Of a DNA stretch of 36,255 nucleotides, positions 6,350 through 11,051 are shown piece by piece. The first letter of the stretch is position 1, and each line of letters opens with the position of its first letter. Position numbers and translations under genes: made by a program. Origin of the DNA: Scytonema tolypothrichoides VB-61278 (lineage in GTDB: Bacteria; Cyanobacteriota; Cyanobacteriia; Cyanobacteriales; Nostocaceae); assembly GCF_000828085.3 (NCBI RefSeq), contig NZ_JXCA02000001.1:1304828-1341082 (forward strand), in the 5' to 3' direction. Under the pieces are notes generated by a model. The model did no database searches. It worked only from the letters and a program-made list of their open reading frames with translations, and was not told the DNA's origin.

Positions 6350-6955
6350 ATGGCGACTTTTGCAGGGGTTACTCCCAAACGTTTTACAATAGCTGACTAT
6401 CACCGCCTCATTGAATTGGGGTTTCTTACAGAAAATGACCGAGTAGAGTTAATTCGCGGAGAACTCATGCAAATGGTAGCTAAAGGAACGCCCCATACTG
6501 TTTGCAATACCTCCTTAGTTTACGAAGTTACAATGTTGCTGCAAGGACGGGCAATAGTCCGAGGACAAGAACCGATTACTTTACCTCCCAAGAGTGAACC
6601 TGAACCCGATTTGGTGATTGCTTACAGTCGGGGCGATTGCCTTCGGCAGAGCTTCGCTAAACGCTACTTATCAGGACATCCAAATCCCGCTGATATTTTG
6701 CTAGTGGCTGAGGTTGCAGATGCTACGCTCAAGTATGATCAGGAAGTGAAGTTACCACTCTACGCAGAATCTGGAATTTCAAATTACTGGATATTCAATT
6801 TGGTGGCAAGTTGTTTGGAAGTTTACACACAGCCCTATCAAGACTTGCAAGGCAACTTTGGCTATGCGAGCAAGCAGATTTTTTTGCCTCATGCTGTTGT
6901 GACTCTCCCTGGTTTCCCGGATTTGTCTGTTGATTTATCTAAGGTGTTTCCCTGA
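6350..6955 (+). CDS. Uma2 family endonuclease (DUF820)
   Basis: A 201-aa restriction-fold protein of the large cyanobacterial Uma2 family, which has a PD-(D/E)xK core. Visible elements are VELIRGELMQM near residue 33, PEPDLVI with P86-D87, LLVAEVADATLKYD with E121, and K134 followed by LPLYAESGI. The family is often associated with mobile DNA but its biological role is poorly known. Residues ~95-105 (GDCLRQSFAKR) interrupt the usual short spacing between PDLVI and the YLSGHP block. They are encoded by a DNA repeat that has inserted in frame. The core residues are intact, so the protein may still fold. Confidence 0.88.
   Translation: MATFAGVTPKRFTIADYHRLIELGFLTENDRVELIRGELMQMVAKGTPHTVCNTSLVYEVTMLLQGRAIVRGQEPITLPPKSEPEPDLVIAYSRGDCLRQSFAKRYLSGHPNPADILLVAEVADATLKYDQEVKLPLYAESGISNYWIFNLVASCLEVYTQPYQDLQGNFGYASKQIFLPHAVVTLPGFPDLSVDLSKVFP
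6630..6664 (+). repeat. Interspersed repeat inserted in frame inside the Uma2 gene
   Basis: The stretch ggcgattgccttcggcag followed by agcttcgctaaacgc resembles a common short repeat of Nostocales genomes. It adds about 11 residues without shifting the frame. Confidence 0.55.
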
Positions 6956-7093: not shown

Positions 7094-7177
7094 GTCATTG
7101 CGAATGGAGCGAAGCGCAATGAAGCAATCGCAAGGGTTTGGGATTGCTTCGCTTCACTCCGTTACGCTCGCAATGAC
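7094..7177. repeat. Inverted-repeat element overlapping the 3' end of the NACHT gene
   Basis: GTCATTGCGA (7094-7103) pairs with TCGCAATGAC (7168-7177), and inside it GAAGCAATC (7121-7129) pairs with GATTGCTTC (7142-7150). The right arm supplies the last codons (KSLRA) and the stop of the minus-strand NACHT gene. It has the look of a small mobile palindromic element and could also act as a bidirectional terminator. Confidence 0.65.
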
Positions 7178-10100
7178 TTAAACACATCTATCCACTTACT
7201 GTGGCGCTTCACAAATGCCCATATCGGTATGAATTTCACTAACTCAGGATAGACGGGAATCAAAAGCTTTCCTCGTTTGCTGAGTGGTGCTTGCTTGCTG
7301 AATCGAACCGCCAATGTCCTTGCTGAGATAAATATGTCATTATCATAAATGTTTATTTCACGGAATTGGATCAGCTTTGCCAAAGTTTCTGGATTGCCAA
7401 TCTCACCCAAAGCTTCTGCCGCTTTGCATTTTACGTACCAGTCTGAGTGGTTGAGAGCAGCAATTAAAGCATCCACCGCTTGAAAGGAGCCAATTTCACC
7501 CAAAGCCTCTGCTGCGTACCTTCTCACGTCTGAGTCTGAGTGGTTGAGAGCAGCAATTAAAGCATCCACTGCTTGGGAGTTATCAATCTTACCCAAAACA
7601 TATACTGCGTACCTTCTCACCTCTGAGTTTGAGTGGTTGAGGGCAGCAATTAAAGCATCTACTGCTTGGGAGTTGTCAATCTTACCCAAAGCTTCTGCCA
7701 CCTTCCATCCCACGTCCGAGTCTGAGTGGTTAAGGGCAGCAATTAAAGCATCTACTGCTTGGGAGGAGTCACTCTTACCTAAAGTATATGCCGCTTTCCT
7801 TCTCACGTCCGAGTCTGAGTGGTTGAGGGCAGTAATTAAATCATCTACAACTTGGGAGGAGCCTATCTTACACAAAGCTTCTACCACCTTCCATTTCACG
7901 TCCGAGTCTGAGCGGTTGAGGACAGTAATTAAATCATCTACAACTTGGGAGGAGCCTATCTTACACAAAGCATATGCCGCGTTCCATCTCACGTACGAGT
8001 CTGAGTCGTTGGAGGCAGCAATTAAAGCATTCACTGCTTGAAAGTTGCCTATCTCACCCAAAGCTTGTGCTGCCTTACTTCTCACGAACGAGTCTGAGTC
8101 GTTGAGGGCAGCAATTAAACCATCCACAGCTTGGGAGTTGCCAATCTTACCCAAAGCAAATGCCGCGCTACTTCTCACCCACAAGTCTGAGTGGTTGAGG
8201 GCTTCTTGCAGCTTCTGGCACATCTGCGAGCTGACTTGACCAAGCGTCACGACTGTTGATGTGATGAAACTAGCACTTGGGTAAAACTGCCAAAACTGGT
8301 AAATGCTGTCGATTATCTTAGCAATCAAAGGATGATTATTTTGTTTGCATTCAGCAGCTGCACGACCAGCCAATAACAACAGTGTTTTAAAAATATCATC
8401 TTTTTCTTTGGTGATAGCTTCCAGCAAGGGAATTGGATTTTCCATCAACCCCGCCAATAAAGTCAAAGTTTCATGCCAGTCGTATTCCCAAAAATGTTCT
8501 CTCGCCAACGCAATACCATTACTGGCATTCTTCAAATAAGAAGCCGTCAAATACTCCTGAAAAGTCCGATGGAGGAACAGGTATTGCTCACCTTGCCTTG
8601 CCAATTTTTGGATAATACCATCTTCCTCACACAGTTCTTTCATTAAATTGGCGGCTGTGGCATTTCTGAAATCACTACAACTCTCACCTCGCAGAAAGTT
8701 TTCAATTTTCTCCCGCAGTTCCCGTAGCGAAAAAATTTCTTTGCCTTCGCAGCTAAATTGATATGCCAGTGATTCTAATAATTGAATTTTGGCGATAACC
8801 CAACCATCAGACGATGATTGTCTATGATTGTCACTCCGCCATTTGCTCAACATATAATCCACGGCTTTTTCATAAACCTGAGTCCGCCGTGCAGGAAGCG
8901 TCAGCCCTTTTTCTTGATACAAACTACACAGCAAGGATAAAAGTAAGGGATTTTGTGCTAATCCTGTAATTTGGGGTTTATGCCGCAATTCTTCAATGAG
9001 TTTCCCTGCTGAAACCGAATCATCCTCAATGTAACCCGCAGCATTGGTAAACCAAGTTTCAATATACTCTTCTGTTTGCTTTTGGCTAAAAGGGACGATT
9101 TCCACCTCCTTAGCACTTTCCACAAAAGCGCCACCATAACCCACAATTCGGGAAGTGCAAATTATCGGACAGGAAGAATTTCTGGTAAATCGGTTCAGCT
9201 TGTCTTTTAAGTCATTGCGATGTTCTTTTGGCACTTCATCTAAAGCGTCTAAAAGCAGCAGACATTTGCCATTTTTCAATTTCTCCTCTAATAAATGCTT
9301 GACCAGTGGCGCGGTTTTCGGGTAGTCTCTTTGTATGATGAGTCTTATTGTGTCTATAACTTCAGTTGCTTGTTCATCCAAATCAGATAGCCTGATAAAC
9401 AGCGGAAATATCACATCATCTATAACTCCCTCTCCTTGTAGGCTACGGTCTACACACATCTCACTCAAAACCTCACCCTCGCTTTTAGCTGCGCTAAAAT
9501 CTTTCCCTCTCCTTAGTAAGGAGAGCCAGTGCGTTGCGGGGGTTCCCCCCGTTGTAGCACCTGGCGTGAGGGATGCCCGGAGGGCAGGGTGAGGTTCCGA
9601 AGGGCTGGGGTGAGGTTTGACTCCCTCTGCTTGCACCAAAGGCTTAGCATGAGTTCTATCTAATAACCTCTGCCTTTGTGCTTGAGCTGTTAACCCAGCT
9701 TCCATCCTCAGTAAAGTAGATTTTCCCATACCTGGGTCAGCCAGAACCATAATTTTCTGATTCTGTTTTTTTGCCTCTTCCCAGTCAACTTGTGTCCGCT
9801 GAGATTCTTCACCCATGCGTTTGAGGGCGTAGGCGCGTTTGAGTTCGGCTTCAGATTCCCCATATTCCCAGAAATTTTCTACATCTTTGCGTTTTGTTTC
9901 CAAGCTGACTTGAATGGGAATATATTGTTCTTTGAGGAGAATTGGCTGCTGGGTGTGGAAAAGCTTAATGTATTTGAAATAATCTTCAATCTCTTGCAGG
10001 AATTGACAAACAGCATTTTTCTCTGGCTCTAGTCCTAGTTGGTCTAATTGTGTTGTAATATTGTCCCAGCGAATGACAAAACTTTCATCGCTTTTGCTGC

Positions 10101-10668
10101 ATTGAATCACACCCACCACTCCGCCCAATTCTTCAGCAAAAACTGCTCCGCCACTCGTTCCAGGCTCGACTTTGGCATCAATTCGATGGGAGAGAAAAGT
10201 AGATGTTTTCTGGGGAAGTTGATTCCAAGGCTGGGTAAATTTTATTTCCTGAGTCCGATAAGTAGAGACTGTATTGAGAGGCGCACTGCGACTGATACTT
10301 TGAGCCGAGACAGCGAACCCTTCCGGAAAGTTTGTCTTTTTTGCAGGCGGAAATCCATAGACTGTTACCGATATTGAGAGCTGTTGAGGGTTGATAATCG
10401 GAACTGCCTTGGCATTTGTGATATTTATTTTGAGAATGGCAATATCAATCTCTGGGTTTGAAAGTTCTTCGCACCACTGCGCCTCGTAAATCTCCCCGCG
10501 ATACTCTACCTTGAGTAAATCCAACAAATAGATCACATGATGGCAAGTCACCAGATAGCCATCACCACGGATGATGAATCCAGAACCCGCAATCTCTCCT
10601 TTTGGTGAGTTAGGGTTGAGGATTTTCACCATCGATTCTCTGAGTTGATCCAGGGTGTAATGACTCAT
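7162..10668 (-). CDS. Trypsin-like protease / NACHT NTPase / HEAT-repeat protein
   Basis: A 1168-aa STAND-type protein. Residues ~1-210 are a trypsin-like serine protease domain with H44 (VTCHHV), D75 (EIDIAIL) and S172 (PGTSGGAVF). Residues ~300-720 are a NACHT NTPase with Walker A ADPGMGKST (310-318; K316) and Walker B LLLLDALDE (D474, D477, E478), followed by helical parts (LRHKPQITGLAQNPLLLSLL, FLHRTFQEYLTA). Residues 823-1101 are nine HEAT units of exactly 31 residues. This is the architecture of bacterial NLR-like conflict or anti-phage proteins: the repeats would sense a trigger, NACHT would oligomerise and the protease would be the effector. A Trypco1-like partner gene lies 17 bp upstream. 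Residues ~336-417 are a repeat-derived insert between Walker A and B. The C-terminus is supplied by an inverted repeat. Domain calls are firm; the defence role is inferred. Confidence 0.93.
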   Translation of the reverse strand: MSHYTLDQLRESMVKILNPNSPKGEIAGSGFIIRGDGYLVTCHHVIYLLDLLKVEYRGEIYEAQWCEELSNPEIDIAILKINITNAKAVPIINPQQLSISVTVYGFPPAKKTNFPEGFAVSAQSISRSAPLNTVSTYRTQEIKFTQPWNQLPQKTSTFLSHRIDAKVEPGTSGGAVFAEELGGVVGVIQCSKSDESFVIRWDNITTQLDQLGLEPEKNAVCQFLQEIEDYFKYIKLFHTQQPILLKEQYIPIQVSLETKRKDVENFWEYGESEAELKRAYALKRMGEESQRTQVDWEEAKKQNQKIMVLADPGMGKSTLLRMEAGLTAQAQRQRLLDRTHAKPLVQAEGVKPHPSPSEPHPALRASLTPGATTGGTPATHWLSLLRRGKDFSAAKSEGEVLSEMCVDRSLQGEGVIDDVIFPLFIRLSDLDEQATEVIDTIRLIIQRDYPKTAPLVKHLLEEKLKNGKCLLLLDALDEVPKEHRNDLKDKLNRFTRNSSCPIICTSRIVGYGGAFVESAKEVEIVPFSQKQTEEYIETWFTNAAGYIEDDSVSAGKLIEELRHKPQITGLAQNPLLLSLLCSLYQEKGLTLPARRTQVYEKAVDYMLSKWRSDNHRQSSSDGWVIAKIQLLESLAYQFSCEGKEIFSLRELREKIENFLRGESCSDFRNATAANLMKELCEEDGIIQKLARQGEQYLFLHRTFQEYLTASYLKNASNGIALAREHFWEYDWHETLTLLAGLMENPIPLLEAITKEKDDIFKTLLLLAGRAAAECKQNNHPLIAKIIDSIYQFWQFYPSASFITSTVVTLGQVSSQMCQKLQEALNHSDLWVRSSAAFALGKIGNSQAVDGLIAALNDSDSFVRSKAAQALGEIGNFQAVNALIAASNDSDSYVRWNAAYALCKIGSSQVVDDLITVLNRSDSDVKWKVVEALCKIGSSQVVDDLITALNHSDSDVRRKAAYTLGKSDSSQAVDALIAALNHSDSDVGWKVAEALGKIDNSQAVDALIAALNHSNSEVRRYAVYVLGKIDNSQAVDALIAALNHSDSDVRRYAAEALGEIGSFQAVDALIAALNHSDWYVKCKAAEALGEIGNPETLAKLIQFREINIYDNDIFISARTLAVRFSKQAPLSKRGKLLIPVYPELVKFIPIWAFVKRHSKWIDVFKSLRA
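7366..8202 (-). repeat. Nine 93-bp tandem repeats encoding HEAT units
   Basis: Nine consecutive 31-codon units encode variants of ALNHSDSDVRRKAAEALGKI. Many are near-identical at DNA level, notably the stretch gcagcaattaaagcatccac. Differences cluster at the positions after SDS/VR, which are the exposed helix faces. Confidence 0.9.
9418..9663 (-). repeat. Interspersed repeat inserted in frame inside the NACHT domain
   Basis: The segment encodes a proline/serine/glycine-rich stretch (PSPSEPHPALRASLTPGATT) foreign to NACHT folds. The DNA carries the perfect palindrome CTCTCCTTA-g-TAAGGAGAG and blocks of the cctcaccct type typical of cyanobacterial intergenic repeats. Edges are approximate. Confidence 0.7.
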
Positions 10669-10685
10669 GGTGCAGAAGCCACAAA

Positions 10686-11051
10686 TTAAGGAGTGGGCGG
10701 TTTTTCCTGTTTAGCTTTACTGAAATCCCACTCTATAGTGACTTTAACATTAGCTTGTGCTGTTCCCTTAGTTACAAAAGGAACTCCTGTTTCTCCTCCT
10801 GCTTGTAAACCAAATTCCAATGTCACCTTAGTTGGTGTGGTGGTATGAGTTATTCCTTCTTTCACACTGTCTAGTACCAGTTTTGAATAGCTGCGTACGG
10901 TACTGACTGTCATTTTTGTCAATCTTTCTGTTCTTTCTTTGATGTCATCAATATATCCAACTGCTTGAAGTTCATCACTATCTTGCTCGTCGTATTGGAT
11001 ATAAATTTCTTCTCCATCAGCACCAAGGATTGTTGTAATTTTTTCAGACAT
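10686..11051 (-). CDS. Trypsin-co-occurring domain (Trypco1 / CU044_2847-like) protein
   Basis: A 121-aa protein whose C-terminal half has the pattern of the trypsin-co-occurring domain Trypco1: VTLEFGLQAGGETG, then a short polar stretch, then AQANVKVTIEWDF. That domain was named for its association with trypsin-NTPase conflict genes. The N-terminus has an ILGADGEEIYIQYDE beta segment and an amphipathic helix (IDDIKERTERLTKMTVSTV). The stop lies 17 bp before the start of the trypsin-NACHT gene on the same strand, so the two are almost certainly co-transcribed. It is probably a small partner or regulator of the protease-NTPase; the biochemical role is not known. The assignment rests on the motif and the neighbour. 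Confidence 0.8.
   Translation of the reverse strand: MSEKITTILGADGEEIYIQYDEQDSDELQAVGYIDDIKERTERLTKMTVSTVRSYSKLVLDSVKEGITHTTTPTKVTLEFGLQAGGETGVPFVTKGTAQANVKVTIEWDFSKAKQEKPPTP

Follow-up and report, generated by a model that had tools for sequence, protein, structure and literature searches.

A Trypco1 gene paired with a trypsin-NACHT-HEAT gene in Scytonema tolypothrichoides, a probable NLR-like conflict receptor with a protease output

What could be the function of two adjacent genes of the cyanobacterium Scytonema tolypothrichoides VB-61278, of which the first encodes a small protein with a Trypco1 (trypsin-co-occurring) domain and the second a 1168-residue protein combining a trypsin-like protease, a NACHT NTPase and an array of HEAT repeats? 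The genes lie in a 36,255-nt stretch of contig NZ_JXCA02000001.1 (positions 1,304,828 to 1,341,082), which was analysed as a whole and is called the window hereafter. Our analysis indicates that the pair probably is a conflict receptor of filamentous cyanobacteria resembling the nucleotide-binding leucine-rich repeat receptors (NLRs), with an HtrA-like protease as its output. At the level of the sequences, this reading is supported by the domains and their key residues, the operon-like gene order, the tracking of the protease by Trypco1, the swapping of N-terminal domains and a fast-changing putative binding surface. An NLR-like conflict system had been proposed in a preliminary description of the locus; the Trypco1 profile match, the conserved pairing, the three-part layout and the swapping speak for that proposal, whereas its defence-island setting and phage link were not borne out.

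Both genes are on the minus strand in an operon-like order, the Trypco1 gene preceding the receptor gene, and 17 nt separate the end of the Trypco1 stop codon (10686) from the start of the large gene (10668). Both open reading frames (ORFs) and this spacing are as first described. The pair comprises, in window coordinates:

10686..11051, minus strand: gene of the Trypco1 protein, 121 aa, first of the pair (PF19493, 65.1 bits; NF041216, 79.7 bits)
7162..10668, minus strand: gene of the trypsin-NACHT-HEAT protein, 1168 aa, second of the pair (ORF and Pfam domains; orthologues in the genus and family)
10054..10668, minus strand: N-terminal trypsin-like (HtrA/DegS-like) protease domain, residues 1-205 (Trypsin_2; H44, D75, S172)
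8224..9783, minus strand: NACHT NTPase and the helical region after it, residues ~296-815 (NACHT, 35.3 bits; K316, D474-E478)
9418..9648, minus strand: in-frame insert of interspersed-repeat modules, residues ~341-417, after the Walker A helix and before the strand that follows it
7366..8202, minus strand: nine tandem 31-aa alphaRep-like HEAT units, residues 823-1101, the proposed sensor (unit extraction, variability, AlphaFold2 model, alphaRep matches)
7165..7365, minus strand: C-terminal cap, residues 1102-1168, conserved among homologues in the alignment

The small protein matches the Pfam Trypco1 profile with an E-value of 9.4e-18 and 65.1 bits against a cut-off of 24.6, which confirms the domain pattern noticed earlier; in NCBIfam it is named CU044_2847 family (NF041216). 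The host genome is close to Brasilonema, its nearest named relatives being Scytonema hyalinum (G011), Brasilonema sp. CT11 (G004), B. bromeliae and B. angustatum (G001). Identity of the Trypco1 protein to seven aligned homologues is 57-97%, and its ratio of nonsynonymous to synonymous substitution rates (dN/dS) is 0.36 against G011 and 1.13 against G001, where very few changes are present. A search of PDB sequences gave no match up to E 1, and an AlphaFold2 model of the protein, built from 3 alignment rows with a mean predicted local distance difference test score (pLDDT) of 48, was too poor and was discarded as evidence.

Is the pairing conserved? We searched 291 genomes of the order with a profile of five trypsin-NACHT proteins (from the window, G011, G205, G109 and G218), and 19 of these genomes had a match with an E-value of 1e-60 or lower. 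Trypsin and NACHT are both covered by seven of the matches (G000, G205, G218, G109, G235, G271 and G196), and in all seven fusions the ORF immediately upstream, in the same orientation, is Trypco1, so that the gene order, for which a survey of cyanobacteria had been proposed, is conserved across genera and families. Two of the three outcomes named beforehand as refuting the claim, no Trypco1 match and no conserved pairing, were thus looked for and neither was found. The close relatives G001 and G011 also have Trypco1, and the contig of G002 begins inside NACHT. The Trypco1 protein of G235 is 75% identical to that of the window and those of G271 and G196 are 59-61% identical, with the NACHT proteins of all three equally distant (~51%), which may reflect an exchange of the partner gene.

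The converse survey shows which part of the receptor Trypco1 follows. The domain is matched in 138 of the 291 genomes, and 80 loci were read. A same-strand trypsin ORF begins within 200 nt after Trypco1 at 55 of them, 24 have none and one is at a contig end; these trypsin calls come from an iterated profile of our own making, which often matches over a short length, and Pfam confirmed Trypsin_2 in 7 of 7 scanned. The own genome holds six Trypco1 genes, three of which, the window pair included, are followed by a trypsin ORF. Together, the search of the order and one of 388 genomes across the class gave 15 NACHT-HEAT relatives that lack the trypsin domain, and none of the 15 has Trypco1 beside it in the DNA examined. 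G315 (at a contig end) and G316 start inside NACHT, so that the count is 0 of the 13 with readable N-termini; the rows are related, not independent. Trypsin-only pieces from the order search comprise one with Trypco1 (G316), one with a partial Trypco1 (G306) and one with none in the DNA examined (G298). In G023 and at a second G002 locus, Trypco1 and a separate trypsin gene are followed by an ORF matched by an iterated NACHT profile (over 46 residues only in G023), and tblastn with the window protein found no NACHT in these downstream ORFs. In these comparisons, Trypco1 tracks the peptidase, not the NACHT switch.

The protease domain scores 54.5 bits with Trypsin_2, above the Pfam cut-off. H44, D75 and S172 are invariant across five aligned trypsin-NACHT proteins, down to 56% identity, and the triad can therefore be regarded as intact, as had been claimed. 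The closest solved chains are DegQ, DegP, DegS and HtrA (over residues ~23-126), and dN/dS is 0.16-0.42 against three close orthologues (G011, G001 and G004). Proteases of the HtrA type are often controlled through oligomers.

NACHT scores 35.3 bits against a Pfam cut-off of 26.7, and K316 (Walker A) as well as D474, D477 and E478 (Walker B) are invariant in the same five rows, down to 56% identity. The description of the domain as intact holds for these motifs but not for its architecture, which is atypical: an in-frame insert of ~77 aa, overlooked at first, follows Walker A. The top Pfam stretch covers profile positions 34-166 only (residues 419-542), and begins at position 34 because the insert parts Walker A from the remainder. 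The DNA of the insert has at least 56 matches in its own genome among those listed, itself included (40 of 222 first-look candidates scored, adjacent modules counted separately), and of the 11 other matches that were checked, none lies within an open frame of more than 109 aa. What the orthologues have at the insert site is different or similar only in part, and in the more distant ones there is next to nothing. Different repeat-like peptides occupy this same loop in S. hyalinum (G011) and in Brasilonema relatives, so that inserted repeats are tolerated there. The orthologue of G205 is longer by ~34 residues (~475-508) in another NACHT loop, where the insert is also repeat-like in appearance. 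In B. angustatum (G001) the NACHT frame becomes unrelated sequence past residue 575 near a contig end and the HEAT array opens another contig, which may be due to the insertion of a mobile element or to a break in the assembly. The NACHT segments have dN/dS of 0.15-0.41 against close orthologues. Two NCBIfam antiphage models gave weak scores far below their cut-offs, EruA on NACHT (NF058535, 47.2 bits against 1000) and DS8 (NF053861, 31.5 bits against 790), so that the protein is neither EruA nor DS8.

The HEAT array evolves differently. The large protein scores 260.3 bits with HEAT_2, above the Pfam cut-off, and nine contiguous 31-aa units were extracted from residues 823-1101, the number counted previously. 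The same motif search found 6 units in the G011 array and 10 in that of G002; the closest unit pairs within an array share 0.98-0.99 DNA identity in G011, G002 and G004, and G205 has one identical pair. Against close orthologues, HEAT is the fastest-changing part of the protein, with dN/dS of 1.01 (G011), 0.70 (G004) and 0.97 (G002) in the three comparable genomes compared with 0.15-0.42 for protease and NACHT; the HEAT alignments may pair non-orthologous units, which would inflate both rates.

The variation within the units is concentrated at a few positions. The six most variable ones (0-based 6, 7, 10, 11, 14 and 18) were chosen on the G205 and G109 arrays. In five Brasilonema/Scytonema test arrays, the proportion of nonsynonymous differences (pN) is 0.343 at these six against 0.106 elsewhere, and none of 300 random six-position sets was as variable. 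Positions 10, 14, 7 and 11 lead the test arrays' own ranking, where 21 and 5 outrank 6 and 18 (seventh and eighth). Pooled, the ratio of nonsynonymous to synonymous differences (pN/pS) is 1.23 at the six positions and 0.71 at the rest. In a phmmer alignment to alphaRep A3, with the register taken by eye from the variable residues, the six map one to one on unit positions 18, 19, 22, 23, 26 and 30, those randomised in the alphaRep library according to the available text of PMC3754942. In the alphaRep complex described there, all 19 A3 interface residues lie at randomised positions and the concave faces are in contact. For the HEAT part, Foldseek placed alphaRep chains first, among ranks 1-14 with 31-43% identity; the list was read for HEAT only because no other part of the full-length AlphaFold2 model was usable (HEAT block means of 67-91 pLDDT). 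The coincidence of naturally variable with randomised positions therefore supports a ligand-binding sensor. The earlier suggestion that HEAT senses an invader is consistent with this pattern of a binding surface, but scans of viral contigs gave no phage link.

The N-terminal slot of the receptor is also exchanged among relatives. Pfam scans of ten of the 15 trypsin-less N-termini found PNP_UDP_1 in one, CHAT in three, EAD10 in two, a sub-threshold HTH in one and nothing in three, and EAD10 also stands on the NACHT-HEAT core of a further homologue, G003. This recurrence of one core with different N-termini is the effector-swapping pattern of conflict systems built on signal transduction ATPases with numerous domains (STAND), as presented in the available part of PMC8195603. 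The order of an NLR-like protein, effector, NACHT, sensor, is thus found together with N-terminal effector swapping. In Drouetiella hepatica, the CHAT-NACHT-HEAT homologue is accompanied by several large same-strand ORFs whose N-termini look CHAT- and caspase-like by eye.

We infer as follows how such a receptor would work, which applies to ligand binding and oligomerisation, to the part played by Trypco1, to what is cut and with what outcome, and to the idea that a phage or another invader is the trigger. The nine-unit HEAT solenoid would be the sensor and bind a protein, the six variable side chains of each unit lying along one face of a helix. Ligand binding would free the NACHT switch and lead to oligomerisation, and the oligomer would gather several N-terminal HtrA-like protease domains, turning the protease on. 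Trypco1, translated just ahead of the receptor, would be a dedicated partner of the peptidase domain; most likely it docks on the peptidase and either holds it off or presents a substrate, and it may be the first substrate itself. The active protease would then arrest or kill the cell. The receptor may act against phages, and Trypco1 may be cleaved, as proposed before. Only tentatively do we extend this scheme to its evolution, in which alphaRep-like HEAT units would be amplified and exchanged, so that the recognition surface shifts between close species with the protease, the switch and Trypco1 conserved, and in which Trypco1 would be a general partner of trypsin- and caspase-type STAND receptors.

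Several results weigh against the conflict-receptor reading. Four of the seven fusions, the window included, belonged to the search profile, and three of these four were first met through Trypco1 itself, the independent ones being G235, G271 and G196. In the G004 fusion, whose contig is 3.2 kb long, the 285 bases upstream contain the sequence of another gene and no Trypco1, and the first residues of this receptor differ from those of its orthologues. Its start may be either a truncation or an assembly chimera; the contig being short and odd at both ends, our estimate was left unchanged. By eye, these 285 bases resemble part of a GGDEF protein in another frame. At 12 of the 80 loci Trypco1 stands divergent beside caspase-nSTAND1 homologues. 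For HEAT, dN/dS against the distant G205 and G218 is 0.32 and 0.13, with dS above 1.2, and pN/pS at the six positions is below 1 in two of the five arrays (0.98 in the window; 0.81 in G001, where the rest reaches 1.03), so that positive selection is not proven. In any repeat protein the exposed positions are the more variable ones, and the design of alphaRep itself drew on natural repeats, for which reason the match speaks for family and surface, not for selection driven by invaders. Beyond HEAT, the model of the whole protein is of poor quality (mean pLDDT 47). Moreover, the setting is not the defence island that had been anticipated: among 16 neighbouring proteins scanned with Pfam, 14 belong to ordinary families, including an epimerase, a radical SAM protein, a rhodanese, an exonuclease, PFOR, ArgJ and ferrochelatase, and two have no family. 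Two pattern-based scans of viral contigs (with Trypco1 and with trypsin-NACHT alignments) found no relatives, and a viral origin or phage link was set aside. PADLOC gave no match to Trypco1 and only partial repeat or protease matches to the large protein.

The same receptor could also work with Trypco1 as the executioner, the activated protease cutting it to release a toxic fragment. Systems of proteases and gasdermins are a precedent for an effector fragment released by a protease. A small conserved partner encoded just ahead of the receptor would suit this role, and so would its occurrence with two unrelated peptidase folds, trypsin and caspase, as expected of a shared substrate. The neighbours in question are homologous from residue 1 to a caspase-nSTAND1 protein, Pfam confirmed the caspase domain (Peptidase_C14) in the two scanned, and the idea that Trypco1 accompanies trypsin alone was dropped on their account. 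The own genome also has one Trypco1 gene divergent beside a caspase (Peptidase_C14)-nSTAND1 homologue, a context that the accessible text of the Trypco1 papers (PMC7159879, PMC10907252) does not mention. In the available part of PMC13236601, LypABC, which resembles CARD-NLR systems, needs the peptidase serine for lysis. However, Pfam and NCBIfam scans of the small protein found no toxin or membrane family, Trypco1 itself only, and published text, as far as accessible, calls Trypco1 an adapter (PMC10907252). We consider the executioner role unlikely.

A housekeeping or stress regulator, in which HEAT binds an endogenous protein (e.g. of the phycobilisome), NACHT is a switch and the protease carries out a regulated turnover that has nothing to do with invaders, seems somewhat less likely still. 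Indeed, the HEAT units score on the models of the phycobilin lyase CpcE and of NblB, below cut-off, they match a phycocyanobilin lyase chain in the PDB, and those neighbours that Pfam can assign to a family are ordinary. The patchy spread, with the fusion in 7 of 291 genomes of the order, and the array turnover and effector swapping are unlike such a regulator. Finally, a decaying or non-functional gene, marked by repeats that invaded NACHT and by a HEAT array evolving almost neutrally, is very improbable: the repeat-derived insert, the G001 frame change and the altered G004 start would suit it, but the frame is open over 1168 codons, the catalytic residues are invariant in five rows down to 56% identity, and the low dN/dS of protease and NACHT between close species (0.15-0.42) disfavours it.

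The conflict receptor that we favour shares parts with several known systems, each of which is compared here with the available text of its source. In the MoxR-vWA-VMAP ternary systems (Kaur et al. 2020, PMC7159879), concentrated in multicellular prokaryotes, a Trypco1 gene stands beside a trypsin-like peptidase, as here; the contexts published for Trypco1 are of this MoxR type (PMC7159879, PMC10907252), whereas here the peptidase is fused to NACHT-HEAT and there are two genes instead of three components. Pfam recognised no MoxR, vWA or VMAP among the 16 neighbouring window proteins, small ORFs being left out. The accessible text of the Trypco papers does not describe a Trypco1 and trypsin-NACHT-HEAT pair, an absence that is weak. 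The anti-phage bNACHT proteins (PMC12169576) have the same order of N-terminal effector, central NACHT and C-terminal sensor, but those with a named effector use a nuclease, in contrast to the trypsin effector, HEAT sensor and Trypco1 partner found here. In CARD-NLR/LypABC (PMC13236601) a trypsin-like peptidase likewise acts with an NLR-like ATPase; here both are in one polypeptide with HEAT, and "Trypco" is absent from the main text of that paper. Neighbour scans with Pfam showed no CARD or endonuclease partner; the published CARD-like domain was recognised by structure, for which the model here is too poor. STAND counter-invader systems (PMC8195603) have EAD10, PNPase, caspase or trypsin in the N-terminal slot before the STAND NTPase, much as EAD10, PNP and CHAT precede the core of the window receptor in relatives, and "Trypco" does not occur in the main text of that paper either. 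The synthetic alphaRep binders (PMC3754942) are built of HEAT-like units, likewise 31 aa long, that vary at the same six positions; theirs is an engineered library, whereas the array here is natural and joined to NACHT.

If our reading is true, the pair would be a compact bacterial analogue of NLRs, made of two genes and acting through a protease, and it would offer direct access to the role of Trypco1, which follows the peptidase rather than the NACHT switch. Since the natural variable positions match those of alphaRep, finding the ligand should be practical with the array alone as a soluble binder; used as bait, it would make the ligand of HEAT-NACHT receptors directly testable.

In a plasmid collection, five records match Trypco1 in part, covering no more than 56% of the query, and two match NACHT-HEAT or HEAT in part. 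PADLOC gave partial matches for two neighbours of the pair, BrxHI as the best for the exonuclease and pVip for the radical SAM protein; these appear unspecific and were set aside. At 6350-6955 on the plus strand, a gene of a Uma2-family putative restriction endonuclease is convergent with the receptor gene, the two being separated by repeat-like sequence.

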